Shown here piece after piece: positions 9,482 to 15,963 of a DNA stretch of 33,591 nucleotides. The position numbers and the translations under genes are program-made. Location of the stretch: NCBI GenBank assembly GCA_903893925.1, contig CAITOC010000038.1, positions 1 to 33,591 of the forward strand, read 5' to 3'. The notes beneath the pieces were generated by a model. It ran no database searches and was not told the DNA's origin. It worked only from the letters and a program-made list of their open reading frames with translations. Within the stretch, counting starts at the first letter, position 1, and every line of letters starts with the position of its first letter. The stretch is from Candidatus Moraniibacteriota bacterium (GTDB lineage Bacteria > Patescibacteriota > Minisyncoccia > Moranbacterales > UBA1568).

Positions 9482-11530
9482 TTATACGTCCCGAAGATGC
9501 TCCTTGAGCAGTTCGCCGAGAACCACGGCCAGCTCGGGCGCCTCGGTACACAACCTTGCCTCCGGAGCATAGGTCGTAAGAGCCGATTTGCCTTCCTCGG
9601 TTATGCCGACACCGACGACGCTCACACCGATCTCCCGCAGTTTTCCTAGCTGTTCCTGGACACGCTTGGCATCATCGCTGTCTCCGTCGGTCATGACAAT
9701 GACGATTTTCTTCAATTTGCCCTCGCGCATGCGGGTGATCTCTTCTTCGGTCACGGAAGCAAGTAGTTTTTCGAGTACCAAAAAGTCTTCTGTCGATCCA
9801 CTCGTACTGCCGAGGCGCCTGTACATCGAAACCCGGTCTTTTTCCGTCAATTCGTCGGATAGTGATTTGACGCACTCTGCCGAATTGCCGAACACCCACA
9901 GCTCATTTCTTACATGCAAATCATATCGGAGCCGTGACCGGATTTCCTCGAGTCTTTCAGAAAACTCTGAAAGGGCCTCCATAACGAGGACCAGTCCTTT
10001 CTTTTGTTCATCCCGTTTTTCCCCGCCATTTTCGGCCATAGAAATCGACGTATCGCCGACGAGACTGATGTCGAAATCACCGACAAAATCGCCTTCCTTC
10101 TCATAAAATTCCGTATCACTCCACACGTCCGGTTCTGCCTCGCCGGCGCGCGTGCGGACGACTGCCTCCGCCGGATACTCGAGCTCGTCTCCCTCAGGAA
10201 GTGGATACTTCGGTTCCGGCATCCGTTTCAAGCGCTTCGAGATAATCCGCTCGAACAGTTCCCGAATCGCGTCTACAACCGACTCACCCGTTTCCGGATC
10301 GGCTATTTTCTCGAGCGAGTCGCGGAACCGCATATAATTCCGAAGGTCATTCGGCTCGACACCCTGCGCCCGAGCATACGCGTCGAATGTTTTTTTTCCG
10401 GCGTTCCCACCCGTTTCGTTTTGTCGTGCGATTTCGTCTTCCACCGCCTTGTTCAGAGTCTCTTCCGGAATCGCCTCCGGATGTTGCTCGAAGTATTTAT
10501 CATATTCCTTGCGGAAATATGCCTCTGGATTCTTGGGGTCGGTCACGTTTTCATCAGTCGGTTTACCAGAAGACCCTTCGCTCTGCCCCGGCATTTCATC
10601 CCCTGGCTTCGAAGACGATTCCGATGAAGGCTCCTGATTCGTATCCGGCTTTCCATCACTGCTTCCCGGTTTCGATGCATCCCCGCTTTGGTCCGGTTCA
10701 CCATTTTTTTGCCCCGATTCCGAAGGTTTGTTCGCTTGCTGTTCTTGTTTCTTCCGAACGTCCTCTACGAAGAATTTTTCGTACACCGGTTCGATGAGCG
10801 CGTCTTGCACGATCAGTCGGTCACGCATCGAGATATCCGGGTGCGTCGCATACTCGAGTATCGGTCGACCGGATTTCTGCCCGCGTATCGTTTTCAGTTT
10901 CTCGAATTCCTCACGGACGTCCGGATCGACCGTCCAAGTCTCGCCTGGGACCTGCATCTCGCAATTCAGCACGTGCGCGAACTGCAAGTGCTTCGGCAGA
11001 CTCGTCAGGTCTCGCTCGGGAAACAGGTCCTTTCGATACAATTCTTCCCGCGTCCCGGACAATACGGGCGCGCGATTCACGACCGCATGATTCATCTTCA
11101 CATCACCAAAGGAATTGTTCAGGATATGATACCGCGTCCGTTCTTCCTTTTTTCGTTTCAGTTTCCGCCAGATTTCCGGCCCGCCGTTCTCCCGTAAGAG
11201 GTCGCGCAATTCGCGGAAGTGTTCTATCTCGTGAAACGCCCCGAAGAGCATCTTCTCTTCCGATCCGCCGTATGCCCCGTCCCGGAACCGTCGATGCAAA
11301 TAATATTCTCCCTTCTCAAGATCGATCGCGCATGTCTCAAGTGGGCCGTCTGGTGTCATCACCCCCTCGGCAGAACGCACGGAAAGCGACGCATCGCCGG
11401 CATACTGCGTAAGCGCACGTTTGTTTCGTTCGATAAAATCGGCCACCGGGTCGCCGTTGTCGCCCGAATCGGGACGTGTCATGCCCGACTGGTCCACGCT
11501 CCACTCGGCTTTGTAGACGGGTTCACGCAT
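9482..11530 (-). CDS. VWA (MIDAS)-domain protein, CobT/predicted-metallopeptidase-like, with N-terminal HEIEH motif; partner of the MoxR-like ATPase
   Basis: DTSIS (DxSxS MIDAS) in FDISLVGDTSISMAENG; IVIVMTDGDSDD; N-terminal FGAFHEIEHFRELRD; long Ser/Pro/Gln/Gly-rich linker. SD-like GGAAGAAG before 11530; alternative start 11482 overlaps the RT stop as ATGA. Confidence 0.85.
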   Translation of the reverse strand: MREPVYKAEWSVDQSGMTRPDSGDNGDPVADFIERNKRALTQYAGDASLSVRSAEGVMTPDGPLETCAIDLEKGEYYLHRRFRDGAYGGSEEKMLFGAFHEIEHFRELRDLLRENGGPEIWRKLKRKKEERTRYHILNNSFGDVKMNHAVVNRAPVLSGTREELYRKDLFPERDLTSLPKHLQFAHVLNCEMQVPGETWTVDPDVREEFEKLKTIRGQKSGRPILEYATHPDISMRDRLIVQDALIEPVYEKFFVEDVRKKQEQQANKPSESGQKNGEPDQSGDASKPGSSDGKPDTNQEPSSESSSKPGDEMPGQSEGSSGKPTDENVTDPKNPEAYFRKEYDKYFEQHPEAIPEETLNKAVEDEIARQNETGGNAGKKTFDAYARAQGVEPNDLRNYMRFRDSLEKIADPETGESVVDAIRELFERIISKRLKRMPEPKYPLPEGDELEYPAEAVVRTRAGEAEPDVWSDTEFYEKEGDFVGDFDISLVGDTSISMAENGGEKRDEQKKGLVLVMEALSEFSERLEEIRSRLRYDLHVRNELWVFGNSAECVKSLSDELTEKDRVSMYRRLGSTSGSTEDFLVLEKLLASVTEEEITRMREGKLKKIVIVMTDGDSDDAKRVQEQLGKLREIGVSVVGVGITEEGKSALTTYAPEARLCTEAPELAVVLGELLKEHLRDV

Positions 11531-12504
11531 ACTTCTTCCAAAACATTCTTTTGTTCCAGTATATCACGGAGTATCCGTACCAATCCATGCGACCGCGAAT
11601 GTCTCAGGAGTCCGATATACGATGACTCATTCCGAGATGCGATCCTCCGGATACTTCGTCTCTTCGTCTTCACGCGAAGGACCCGGTGAAATCGGAAATG
11701 CACCTTCCCGAGAAAATCCACACCGCTCCCGAATCGAACAATCCGTGTCTTCTCGGGATGAAGCGTGAGGCCGAGATTCTGGGTCAGGAACGCATCCATA
11801 CGTGACCGCATGCGGTCAAGCGCTCCCACATCGTCCGAAAGGACCACGAAATCATCGGCATACCGGATATAGTATTTCACACCGAGCTCTCGCTTTACGA
11901 ACTGGTCAAATGGATCGAGATACGCGTTGGAGAACAGTTGCGACGTCAAGTTTCCGAGTGGAATACCTTTACCGGGAGACGTTTCGAAGCTCGAAACGAC
12001 AGAGTGAAGCAATCCGAGCGTTCGTTCACATCGGATCCGTCGACCCAAAATGTGAAGCAGCGTTTCGTGATCGACCGAATCGAAGTATTTCCGGATATCA
12101 GCCTTCAATACGAACGCCGTGCGCGAGCCGTTTCGCGAGCACTTCCGGACGAAGGCATCGAACCGGTCATTCGCGGAAAGTGTCCCTTTCCCGGTCCGAT
12201 TCGCATACGAATCGAAGATGAATCCGCGATCGAACACGGGACCGATCACTCGGCACATAGCGTGGTGGAGCACCCGGTCACGGACCGGCGCCTTGGATAT
12301 TTCCCTCCGCTTTGGATCGTGGACGATGAATCGGGTATACTGTCCGTGACGATACTTCCCGGCTTTCAGGTCGAGAGCGAGCGCCACGAGATGTTCTTCG
12401 ACCCGATCACCGAACTCGATGACGTCTTTTTTGGAACGTTTCCCGATTCGGAATTCACGCCACGCGACAACCAGGTTCTCAAGTGAGATAATCCGTTCGA
12501 ACAT
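11479..12504 (-). CDS. DGR-type reverse transcriptase
   Basis: GIPLGNLTSQLFSNAYLDPFD (DGR-like LGNxTSQ replacing QGxxxSP), YYIRYADDFVVL (YxDD), LHPEKTRIVRFGSGVDFLGKVHF, ISKAPVRDRVLHHAM. Start MFERIISLENLVVAWRE preferred; ORF open to 12579. Confidence 0.93.
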   Translation of the reverse strand: MFERIISLENLVVAWREFRIGKRSKKDVIEFGDRVEEHLVALALDLKAGKYRHGQYTRFIVHDPKRREISKAPVRDRVLHHAMCRVIGPVFDRGFIFDSYANRTGKGTLSANDRFDAFVRKCSRNGSRTAFVLKADIRKYFDSVDHETLLHILGRRIRCERTLGLLHSVVSSFETSPGKGIPLGNLTSQLFSNAYLDPFDQFVKRELGVKYYIRYADDFVVLSDDVGALDRMRSRMDAFLTQNLGLTLHPEKTRIVRFGSGVDFLGKVHFRFHRVLRVKTKRRSIRRIASRNESSYIGLLRHSRSHGLVRILRDILEQKNVLEEVCVNPSTKPSGAWTSRA

Positions 12505-12510
12505 ATCATC

Positions 12511-12900
12511 ATGAACGACAGTGGCTTCTCGGAACCGGTCATTTTCCTTCGGCTTGCCGACTGTTATCGGTGTCTCCATACCCGTATTCTTTCATTTCCG
12601 AAAGCGTCGCGCTACTCGCTCGGTATGCGTCTCGAACAGTCCCTCCTCGAGATCGTCGAGGTCGGCTACCTGGCTCAATCGAAACGGGGCACATCGAGAG
12701 TCATGATCCTCAACAAGATGGACGTGACACTGCGGATATTTTTCTTTCATCTCCGGCTCGCGCACGATACCCGATGTCTCAACGATGCCGGGTACGCCGA
12801 ATTATCCGGATACGGCGTCGAGATCGGCAAGATGATCGGTGGCTGGCTCAAAAAGACGACCGAATCGGAGGAAACGAAAACCGCGGGTCGTCCGCGGTGA
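12511..12900 (+). CDS. avd: Avd-like accessory variability determinant (four-helix bundle)
   Basis: CYRCLHTRILSFPKASRYSLGMRLEQSLLEIVEVGYLAQ and NKMDVTLRIFFFHLRLAHDTRCLNDAGYAELSGYGVEIGKMIGGWLK match the Avd pattern; located between RT and TR. Confidence 0.82.
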   Translation: MNDSGFSEPVIFLRLADCYRCLHTRILSFPKASRYSLGMRLEQSLLEIVEVGYLAQSKRGTSRVMILNKMDVTLRIFFFHLRLAHDTRCLNDAGYAELSGYGVEIGKMIGGWLKKTTESEETKTAGRPR

Positions 12901-12912
12901 TCGCCGTTCCTT

Positions 12913-13028
12913 CGGGAGGCCACGGCACGCAAATTCGAGTTCGAGTCATCCGGCGTGTTCCTGTTCACGTTCGCGCCATTCTCGTCCGCATTGCCGAAGT
13001 AAACGAGGTTGCCGTCCGACGAGAGTGC
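12913..13028 (-). repeat. DGR template repeat (TR); sense is the minus strand
   Basis: 116 bp aligned without gaps to 13295-13410 at a constant 382-bp offset; 13 differences, all T on + (A in the minus sense). Confidence 0.95.
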
Positions 13029-13208
13029 CATGGTGCCCGGTGCCATCCGAATGCGTTCCGGAGCGGATACGGTCTCGTACCGGCACCGGACGTGGGGAGA
13101 AAATATGCGCGCGCTCCTACTCCCCTCTCTGTCGATACTCGCGCCGACACCGGACAAGCAGAAACTGCTGGGGTCACGACGCGTACGCCGTGTCTCATTC
13201 CCACAATC

Positions 13209-13217
13209 AGTATATCA
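13209..13217 (-). promoter_or_regulatory. Extended -10 motif TGATATACT upstream of TR
   Basis: agtatatca on + reads TGATATACT on minus; same TGNTATACTG motif occurs upstream of three minus-strand genes here. Confidence 0.45.
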
Positions 13218-13228
13218 TGTGCAAAACC

Positions 13229-13255
13229 GCTTCCACCCCTTTCCGGGGTGGAAGC
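13229..13255 (-). terminator. 11-bp perfect hairpin about 40 bp downstream of VR (DGR target-site hairpin and/or terminator)
   Basis: GCTTCCACCCC-GGAAA-GGGGTGGAAGC on minus, followed by GGTTTT. Confidence 0.7.
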
Positions 13256-13281
13256 CGACTCAAAGGCTCAAAGATCAAAGC

Positions 13282-15963
13282 TCAACATCCACTGCGGGAG
13301 GCCACGGCACGCAAAGACGAGTACGAGTCATCCGGCGTGCGCCAGCTCACGTGCGCGCCACTCTCGTCCGCATCGCCGAAGTAAACGAGGCGGCCGTCCG
13401 ACGAGAGCGCATATGACCAGACATAATTGCCGTCCGCGAACAGCGTCCCTCTTCCTGTTCCATGCACGAGGAGAAACCGAAATATCGTATTTTGTACTCG
13501 TTCACGCACGAAGCTCATGATTGGAAGCGACGCGAGCTTGTTGGCATCATCTTTGAACGTATCCTTCTTTGAATGCCATTCATCGACGGCTTTTCGGAAT
13601 GCATCCGGTTCTACTCCGCCAAAGAAATTTTGTCTCGCATTCGCGATCAGGATATCCGTCTGCGCGACGAAGTTTTTGCTTTCCGTACCAGGCAAGGCCT
13701 TGGGCGAGACAAACTGCCACCCAGACTGTGGGGTGCCGGTTTTCACCTCTTGATCGCCAGAAAACCAAGCACCATCCAAGATCTCACCATTTTCGTCAAA
13801 CTGATTCTTGTAGAGGAGATACTTCGTCGGACTTCCGCTCGCATCGCGTTCCAAAACATTGCGTCCGTCGGAAAGCGCACGACTGGCCATGTTCTGAATA
13901 TCGAACGCTGTCCCGTCTGGCAATATATCCGGATTGTAAATCAGGATATGACCGAGCTGTTCGTGCCGGATCATGTCTGCTTGTGTATACGGGATCGGTG
14001 GTGCTTCCGGTCGGAACCCGAAGACCTGTTCTATTTCCTCTGGCCCATAGAAACGCTCCTTGAATATATCCCGTGCCTCCCTGAAACTTGCGTATTCATG
14101 CGAACCTGGCTCCGTGTCCGGCTTCGAGGACGGCAATCCGAGCTCCTCATTCGCGTCGATTCTCATCCGTTCATACGGATCGATTCTCGCCACGTCTTCG
14201 GCGGACAGGGTCGCAAGACTTTCTTCCGGAGAAAGCTCGGTTCGTTTCGGTTTTGATAATGTCGTCGGATCGAGCTTCTTGTCGGAGTAATCGACCCCGA
14301 TGCGTGTCCGGAAGTCCTCTTGCTTGTATCCTGAGAGGAATCCTTTCTGGGCCAACATATAGATCGCAAGGCGCTTGTCCTCTTCACCGATCTTGTCCCC
14401 CTCGAAGGTCCGAATGAGTGCCTCGTCGAGGAAATCGCGAAGCGTCGTCCCACGCTCCATCCGTGCGATTCGGAATCCTTGTAAGAGTCGCACCGCCATT
14501 CCGGTATCAAGCACGTACTTCTCGAGTTGTGGCCGTTTCCCCCGTTTCGATCCCTTCCCGAATGCCGAAAAGTCGGCGTCACTCCCATAGTGTGCCGGGA
14601 GTGTGTTCGCGTATGCTTCCTGTATATCGTGGATGGCGTCGGTGAAATGCTTCAGGGTCGTGCCCGCCTCTTCGCGCGTCAAAAGCACGCGACCCTGCGT
14701 ATCGGCAAGCGACGCCAGGGCGACGTCGTAAAGTTCGGAAGCCGGCATATATTCCATCCGGATAGTCGAATCGAGAAAGACACGGGTCTCTTGCGGCTCG
14801 AGTGCCCCTTTCTCGGCATATTTCTCGCTCTTAAGGTTTGCGGTCATGATCAAAGCGAACCCCTCCGCGACATGGACTTTCCCGTTTCCGGGGATATTCA
14901 CCCGATCACCAGGCTTCGCATTGTAGAGTGCCTTAAGCACCTGCCGGAATCGCGGATCGAGCTCATTGAATTCGTCGAAGATGCAAACCCGTCCCTCGGT
15001 GAGGGCCCGGACGAGCGGTCCGAAATCGATATCGGTCACGGTCGCGCCGTGTTCACTTTCCCGAAGTGACTGTTTGCCGAAGATTTCGCTTTGTCGGGTC
15101 TGCGGATTGCAATAGATGGTCTCGGCGTCACGACTGGTGCATTCACGCGCGGCATACTTCGCGAGTTCGGTCTTGCCACCACCGGTATGCCCTTCCTCGA
15201 GATTCGGCTTTCCCTGCTCGATGAACACTCCGATCCGATCGATATATTCACGTCGACTCCGCGTGACCACGAAATGATCCTTTACCAACTGTTGCCGATA
15301 TTTCGACAGCTCATATTCTCGGACCATATACCTGGTCTCGGGGTCGGATTCCAATGTTTCGTGCCGTTTCACGATGGTCTGAGCGAGGTCCGCACCCATA
15401 CGAAGCCGCTCAGCAAGTCGCTCATCCTCCGGTTGGCGCAACAAACGATACCGGCCCTGTTTCTGGAGAAGATGGAACCGCTCCATCGCATCGAGCTCCT
15501 GAAAAATTTTTGCCTTTCGCTGTTCCTTTTCGTCTTGTTCGAGAGACGTCGTATCTTCGATCGTCTCCGTCGTTTGTTCCGACCTCATAGCGGACGCCTT
15601 GGCCTCGCGGGATTCGGCATATCGTCGGCGTATATCGGAAAGTGGTCTCTCGATTTTTTCAGGCAACACTTCTTCGCTTTTCTCCGGTCGATCTGGAAGG
15701 AGTTTGAAATCCTTCGCCTCCTCGTTCAATGTCTCGATACGGTCAAGTCCCTCGGATACCGAAGGCGCCGTGTCCGCATCGAGCACGACCTTCTCCACGA
15801 CGTTTGAAAGATTCCCTTCATTGACCACCTTCGTGAATTCCGGTTTCGCGACCACTCCGCCACGCGAAGACACCTCATGCGCCGAAAATCCGGTCGCATC
15901 AAGCACCTCATGACGAAGCTTCCGTCGTTCTTCTCCGATAGCGAAAAAATCCTTTTCAGACAT
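13282..15963 (-). CDS. MoxR-like AAA+ ATPase with C-terminal DGR variable region (probable C-type-lectin/FGE-like fold); DGR target
   Basis: Walker A GHTGGGKT, Walker B CIFDEFNEL, GFALIMTANLKSEKY; C-terminal GWQFVSPKALPGTESKNFVAQTD and variable tail ALSSDGRLVYFGDADESGAHVSWRTPDDSYSSLRAVASR coinciding with VR. Confidence 0.9.
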   Translation of the reverse strand: MSEKDFFAIGEERRKLRHEVLDATGFSAHEVSSRGGVVAKPEFTKVVNEGNLSNVVEKVVLDADTAPSVSEGLDRIETLNEEAKDFKLLPDRPEKSEEVLPEKIERPLSDIRRRYAESREAKASAMRSEQTTETIEDTTSLEQDEKEQRKAKIFQELDAMERFHLLQKQGRYRLLRQPEDERLAERLRMGADLAQTIVKRHETLESDPETRYMVREYELSKYRQQLVKDHFVVTRSRREYIDRIGVFIEQGKPNLEEGHTGGGKTELAKYAARECTSRDAETIYCNPQTRQSEIFGKQSLRESEHGATVTDIDFGPLVRALTEGRVCIFDEFNELDPRFRQVLKALYNAKPGDRVNIPGNGKVHVAEGFALIMTANLKSEKYAEKGALEPQETRVFLDSTIRMEYMPASELYDVALASLADTQGRVLLTREEAGTTLKHFTDAIHDIQEAYANTLPAHYGSDADFSAFGKGSKRGKRPQLEKYVLDTGMAVRLLQGFRIARMERGTTLRDFLDEALIRTFEGDKIGEEDKRLAIYMLAQKGFLSGYKQEDFRTRIGVDYSDKKLDPTTLSKPKRTELSPEESLATLSAEDVARIDPYERMRIDANEELGLPSSKPDTEPGSHEYASFREARDIFKERFYGPEEIEQVFGFRPEAPPIPYTQADMIRHEQLGHILIYNPDILPDGTAFDIQNMASRALSDGRNVLERDASGSPTKYLLYKNQFDENGEILDGAWFSGDQEVKTGTPQSGWQFVSPKALPGTESKNFVAQTDILIANARQNFFGGVEPDAFRKAVDEWHSKKDTFKDDANKLASLPIMSFVRERVQNTIFRFLLVHGTGRGTLFADGNYVWSYALSSDGRLVYFGDADESGAHVSWRTPDDSYSSLRAVASRSGC
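13295..13410 (-). repeat. DGR variable repeat (VR) at the 3' end of the AAA+ ATPase gene
   Basis: Aligned to TR by eye; changes alter eight Asn codons and one Arg codon, plus one silent GCA to GCG. Confidence 0.95.

Follow-up and report, generated by a model that had tools for sequence, protein, structure and literature searches.

One retroelement template serves an ATPase-fused and a free sensor in a Moraniibacteriota genome, part of a candidate ATPase-VWA recognition module of Patescibacteriota

We describe a diversity-generating retroelement (DGR) and its targets in a Candidatus Moraniibacteriota bacterium (assembly GCA_903893925.1). The element lies at positions 9482-15963 of contig CAITOC010000038.1, whose 33,591 nt are referred to as the window. 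A single template repeat (TR) serves two variable repeats (VRs) in this genome, one in a sensor unit fused to an AAA+ ATPase and one in a free sensor. The ATPase is encoded together with a VWA protein that carries an enzyme-like domain, and the same combination recurs in related genomes. We give about an even chance to the explanation that it forms a cytosolic self-diversifying machine with a probable role in defence: a hypermutated sensor would gate a motor of ATPase and VWA protein, akin to NorQD and Midasin, and this motor would control a protease-like effector.

The 119-nt TR (12910-13028, minus strand) and the VR in the ATPase gene (13292-13410, minus strand) differ at 14 of 119 positions, and every mismatch is at a TR adenine (6 A>G, 5 A>C and 3 A>T). 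Adenine makes up 27 of the 119 TR bases; by our own arithmetic, the chance of all 14 mismatches falling on it is around 1e-9. The VR stops 10 nt short of the end of the ATPase open reading frame (ORF) and codes for the C-terminal ~40 residues of the protein. Adenines are found in 17 TR codons, none of which can turn into a stop codon by changes at A, and about 1.3e14 peptides are reachable from this TR. The pattern bears out an earlier reading of the window made from its sequence (hereafter the original prediction), according to which the ATPase has a C-terminal tip that is diversified by a DGR.

A genome-wide search with the TR returned exactly two VRs, the one at the ATPase tip and another on contig C67 (G000:C67:15882-15997). 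Over a 106-nt core, 15 of 15 mismatches of this second VR are at TR adenines. It ends a stand-alone protein of 271 aa that is 43% identical to the sensor unit of the ATPase (residues 616-893; 13285-14118, minus strand), which is also homologous to ~275-aa stand-alone sensors of relatives. One template therefore serves a fused and a free sensor in the same genome. The original prediction was right about the ATPase target and overlooked the one in trans.

The reverse transcriptase (RT) gene (11479-12579, minus strand; RVT_1, 3.2e-20) probably has its true start ~20 codons downstream of the annotated one. The protein contains the motifs LGNLTSQ and YADD, and the best PDB match of its family profile is 8ub7 (E 9e-67), which we take to be the DGR RT of BPP-1, with group II RTs behind (7e-35). 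Motifs and profile identify the RT as DGR-type. A bAvd-like accessory gene (12511-12900, plus strand; PF22296, 1.6e-13) lies antisense between TR and RT. With avd antisense beside the TR, the spacer RNA needed downstream of the TR would therefore be antisense of avd.

We surveyed ~80 RT loci (L031-L165). The avd gene is antisense between TR and RT in all 73 loci where an Avd gene was detected, usually at most ~50 nt from the TR, and the TR is on the RT strand in 80 of 81 loci. The genome of the window also contains a second DGR (L030, G000:C70, 6292-7505), with an Avd-like gene and an RT truncated at the end of the contig, for which no target was found.

The ATPase (13282-15963, minus strand; 893 aa) has an AAA_5 domain at residues 258-379 (Pfam, 1.1e-11), with Walker A GHTGGGKT at residue 258 and Walker B VCIFDEFN at residue 326. 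By profile search, the best solved relatives of its family are Midasin (1e-58), NorQ (2.5e-15) and CbbQ. The partner (9482-11530, minus strand; 682 aa) has a VWA domain at residues 487-658 (Pfam, 4.8e-11). Its predicted structure, with a predicted local distance difference test (pLDDT) score of 74.9, best matches the VWA domain of NorD in NorQD complexes (9qhd_G, E 4e-9), followed by the metal-ion-dependent adhesion site (MIDAS) domain of Midasin. The MIDAS motif DTSIS occupies residues 493-497 (10040-10054, minus strand), and D493, S495 and S497 are invariant in 9 aligned members; Walker A and MIDAS motifs are retained in most members. A search of the genome contigs with the window ATPase as query gave no relative.

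These data agree with the proposed pairing of a MoxR-like AAA+ ATPase with a VWA protein, which are of the NorQ/CbbQ/Midasin and NorD kinds and recur as a cassette. AAA_5, VWA, RVT_1 and bAvd were all matched in a Pfam search of the ORFs, and the order of parts was as predicted: ATPase with its VR, TR, RT and VWA gene on the minus strand, with the bAvd gene on the plus strand.

Combining an AAA_5-type ATPase with a MIDAS VWA domain is a feature shared with NorQ-NorD, CbbQ-CbbO, RavA-ViaA and Midasin (Rea1), from which the best structural and profile matches come. To our knowledge, none of these has a DGR, a hypervariable tip, or an HExxH or transglutaminase-like domain. In NorQD, the VWA domain inserts a finger into the pore of the ATPase, and NorD is remodelled by ATP hydrolysis (PMC13036017). 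By analogy, the ATPase described here would form a hexamer that acts via the VWA protein, in the way that NorQ acts via NorD.

This kinship also suggests a chaperone or activase with changeable targets, comparable to NorQD, CbbQO or RavA-ViaA, which would remodel or metallate clients, its tip widening or shifting client choice with no part in killing or defence. The nearest solved relatives NorQ, CbbQ and Midasin are indeed remodelling machines, NorQD drives metal insertion via its VWA partner (PMC13036017), and the VWA family is retained in many genomes that lack a DGR. Chaperone clients are normally fixed, however, and random diversification up to ~1e14 variants makes little sense for them; the repeated swaps of sensor ends and enzyme-like domains, described below, are typical of conflict systems. 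We consider the chaperone explanation unlikely.

The N-terminal part of the VWA protein contains an HExxH motif (HEIEH, residues 100-104; 11219-11233, minus strand). Its H/E/H residues are kept in all 9 aligned members (as HExxxH in three), N139 and D143 of an N-x3-D motif are invariant, and the two motifs sit on two successive helices of the predicted structure. HExxH is also present in 11 phylum-wide VWA homologues. In six other loci (L157, L158, L160-L162 and L164), the corresponding place in the gene order is filled by a protein that combines a Transglut_core domain (PF01841, up to 2e-13) with a VWA region. Judged from motifs and domain matches, the enzyme-like domain of the VWA protein is exchangeable between relatives, being either zincin-like with HExxH or transglutaminase-like.

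The sensor units vary as well. That of the window belongs to a family with 27-43% identity over 13 members, and its AlphaFold2 model has a pLDDT of 81.7 and a predicted template-modelling score of 0.82. Corresponding sensors of different species have bodies that are 74-95% identical and agree at 0-1 of the 9 positions where the TR of L035 encodes Asn. For example, L034b and L035b are 95.3% identical in the body and identical at 1 of these 9 positions. VRs thus differ among relatives of the window's species, and a constant ATPase/VWA core with variable sensor ends is found in these relatives, in line with the predicted fixed core and hypermutated tip. In one pair, the IMG/VR copy L182 and the G213 locus L188, the ATPase genes are 100% identical in DNA and the VR peptide is the same.

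Sensor ends are also exchanged as a whole. In G246 (L040, G246:C1, 2838-10300), three paralogues share an N-terminus of ~70 aa and have three different C-terminal ends: one C-type-lectin-like (CLec-like), one of a different kind, and one made of ~10 tandem 29-aa repeats. This genome has no DGR RT. Another genome without a DGR RT, G325, has ~8 sensor paralogues around an ATPase and a VWA gene (L149, G325:C2, 1-13574). A WD40 protein was confirmed in this array at 1242-2396, and the gene at 11485-12636 looks alike. In G325, paralogue copy number may replace hypermutation.

Relatives of the ATPase and sensor are patchily distributed, occurring in 14 of the 286 genomes of the class. Three loci (L031-L033) repeat the fused form of the window with TR, VR, Avd, RT and VWA. 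Three others (L034-L036) have a split form with three ~275-aa sensors: one before the ATPase gene, one between it and the VWA gene, and one after the VWA gene. Named genomes with this form belong to Candidatus Yanofskybacteria and Nomurabacteria. One TR feeds three VRs in L035 (mismatches at A 16/16, 17/17 and 16/16), in L036 (12/12, 7/7 and 16/17) and in L164, and two VRs each in L159 and L165. The recurring module accordingly consists of an ATPase, a VWA protein and 1-3 (once ~8) paralogous sensors, fused or separate. The predicted ATPase-fused target is borne out in the window, but the module has other arrangements as well, and its sensors are often separate. Among the loci surveyed, the VR-bearing gene is that of the ATPase or of a free sensor and never that of the VWA protein.

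The VWA family is present in 10 of the 286 genomes, and an RT is adjacent on the same contig in 8 of these 10; such an RT is present in 131 of the 286. The seed alignment for this family came from loci found via the ATPase rather than the RT; the sensor region of the ATPase accounted for some of these finds, and the counts may therefore be biased to some degree by selection. Across the phylum, the family is found in 23 of 380 genomes, and of 21 loci examined, 17 have the ATPase adjacent and 9 the RT.

Most targets in the surveyed RT loci are small proteins (~190-290 aa) without ATPase or VWA. Over all detected targets, 1581 mismatches are on TR adenines and 58 elsewhere, a count that is descriptive only, as the detector selects for this bias. 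The prevalence of small targets could mean that the association is incidental, target domains often being appended to carrier proteins and the VWA protein being a mere neighbour of the RT. We find this hardly credible: besides the adjacency of the RT in 8 of 10 VWA-family genomes, the order of ATPase, VWA and sensor recurs across families and classes, and one TR serves sensors on either side of the ATPase and VWA genes.

The ATPase/VWA-linked RTs cluster more than in any of 500 shuffles, with the window RT on a long branch. A single clade of these RTs was rejected, the tree needing 4 changes, at least 2 of them forced by starred branches. Among the other targets, one of 710 aa has a PcfJ-like domain (L060, G223:C22, 11084-13216; 1e-7), and several more of 610-710 aa have no recognisable domain.

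Neither the window ATPase nor its VWA partner nor the C67 sensor shows an apparent transmembrane segment or a clear signal peptide, and the surface interaction raised in the original prediction is disfavoured on these grounds. Since the sensor is fused to an AAA+ ring, it would be placed in the cytosol. Bacteria of the candidate phyla radiation (CPR) often live on other cells. A sensor that attaches to host or symbiont cells, with ATPase and VWA helping its assembly or export, would suit that habit, and host interaction has been suggested for clade-5F CPR/DPANN DGRs (PMC10907252). With both the lack of export signals and the fusion to a cytosolic ring speaking against it, we regard attachment as improbable.

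Some loci lie beside genes that may belong to mobile elements. L035 adjoins Terminase_6C and methylase-like genes, and L036 adjoins ResIII/helicase and recurs as a copy in a contig that IMG/VR classifies as viral. In L182 (IMGVR_UViG_3300025323_000504), the DGR, sensor and ATPase have DNA methylases and a terminase-like ORF (recognised by eye) as neighbours. The interval between the flanking ParB and glycosyltransferase genes of the window differs among genomes of the family. A clean empty insertion site was sought there and rejected: the flanks are 2.9-3.3 kb apart in G040 and G215, but other sequence lies between them.

This context, the differing content between these flanks and the patchy distribution would be expected if the module were cargo of Patescibacteria prophages or mobile elements, used for superinfection exclusion or inter-element conflict, with the window copy a domesticated remnant. 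Nonetheless, none of the genes in the window was recognised as a phage gene, phage-gene context was examined in a minority of loci, and the IMG/VR classification can include host DNA. Such an origin appears distinctly unlikely to us.

For the self-diversifying machine, the following course of action can be proposed. The DGR, made up of RT, bAvd and TR, rewrites the last ~40 sensor residues at template adenines only, as the sequences show. The variable tips may then bind unpredictable ligands, most likely phage or invader proteins inside the cell, and binding would alter the ATPase-VWA assembly. The altered assembly could release or steer the zincin-like or transglutaminase-like domain, with either the ligand or the host as its target. 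A constant motor with swapped recognition and enzyme-like parts is what we would expect of a conflict system, and the sequence comparisons of core, sensors and enzyme-like domains fit the proposed role in recognition or defence.

Several results weigh against a defence machine of this kind. Foldseek searches of the sensor-unit model in PDB and BFVD gave no match at E<=0.001, leaving the CLec fold without significant support and the CLec/FGE fold predicted for the ATPase C-terminus unconfirmed by structure prediction. Weak recurrent matches were to FGE, EgtB and SenA, the top viral match was a DUF1566 protein (E 0.12), and sequence searches of the unit in Pfam, PHROGs and PDB gave nothing convincing. 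The zincin-like N-terminus of the VWA protein, likewise part of the original prediction, has the conserved HExxH and N-x3-D motifs but no Pfam or fold match, its assignment coming from motifs and helix placement. PADLOC returned no defence model for the VWA protein, its results being RT matches and one weak ATPase match. The window flanks are housekeeping genes according to the ORF list. Finally, 10 of the 23 VWA-family genomes phylum-wide are without a DGR RT, and the ATPase-VWA pair therefore has some role independent of hypermutation as well.

A diversified ATPase of this kind has been reported before. PMC10907252 names fusions of CLec and AAA ATPase as the most frequent architecture of DGR targets in CPR, with reference to Paul et al. 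2017, and suggests the ATPase as a signal transducer. The window shares with these CPR systems the diversified ATPase-fused target. In our class sample, small stand-alone targets outnumber ATPase fusions, unlike in that statement; sampling or definitions may explain the difference. Beyond what is known are the trans target, the recurring ATPase-VWA-sensor module, the contrast between conserved sensor bodies and divergent TR-Asn positions across species, the sensor swaps and the enzyme-domain swaps. In the literature searched, which covered Paul et al. 2017 at second hand, we found no description of a VWA partner with an exchangeable zincin-like or transglutaminase-like domain, of split CLec-ATPase-CLec-VWA-CLec arrays, of a trans target or of sensor swaps.

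The VMAP ternary systems (PMC7159879, PMC10907252) likewise combine a MoxR-like ATPase, a vWA protein and a DGR-diversified domain with variable effectors, and have been proposed to act in intracellular immunity. As in these systems, a MoxR-like ATPase and a vWA protein are encoded together here. There, the vWA part carries the diversified FGS/CLec domain (PMC7159879, PMC10907252), whereas here that domain is on the ATPase or a free protein. They also have the VMAP protein as a third part and belong to a different phylum. No VMAP gene was recognised among the neighbouring ORFs here, in searches that used no VMAP profile.

We tentatively suggest, at somewhat less than an even chance, a separate family of intracellular immune systems in Patescibacteria, in which hypermutated or exchangeable sensors would gate an AAA+/VWA motor with an interchangeable protease-like effector on the VWA subunit. 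A genome of ~1 Mb with one TR and several receptors would thereby gain antibody-like anticipatory recognition. CPR DGR targets are mostly without recognisable domains (PMC8144416). The module links a diversified domain to a mechanistically understood NorQD-like motor and a candidate enzymatic output, which makes the purpose of CPR DGRs testable in the laboratory. It would also be a second setting, besides cyanobacteria and gammaproteobacteria, for hypermutated sensors on MoxR-like/VWA machinery, on a different subunit.
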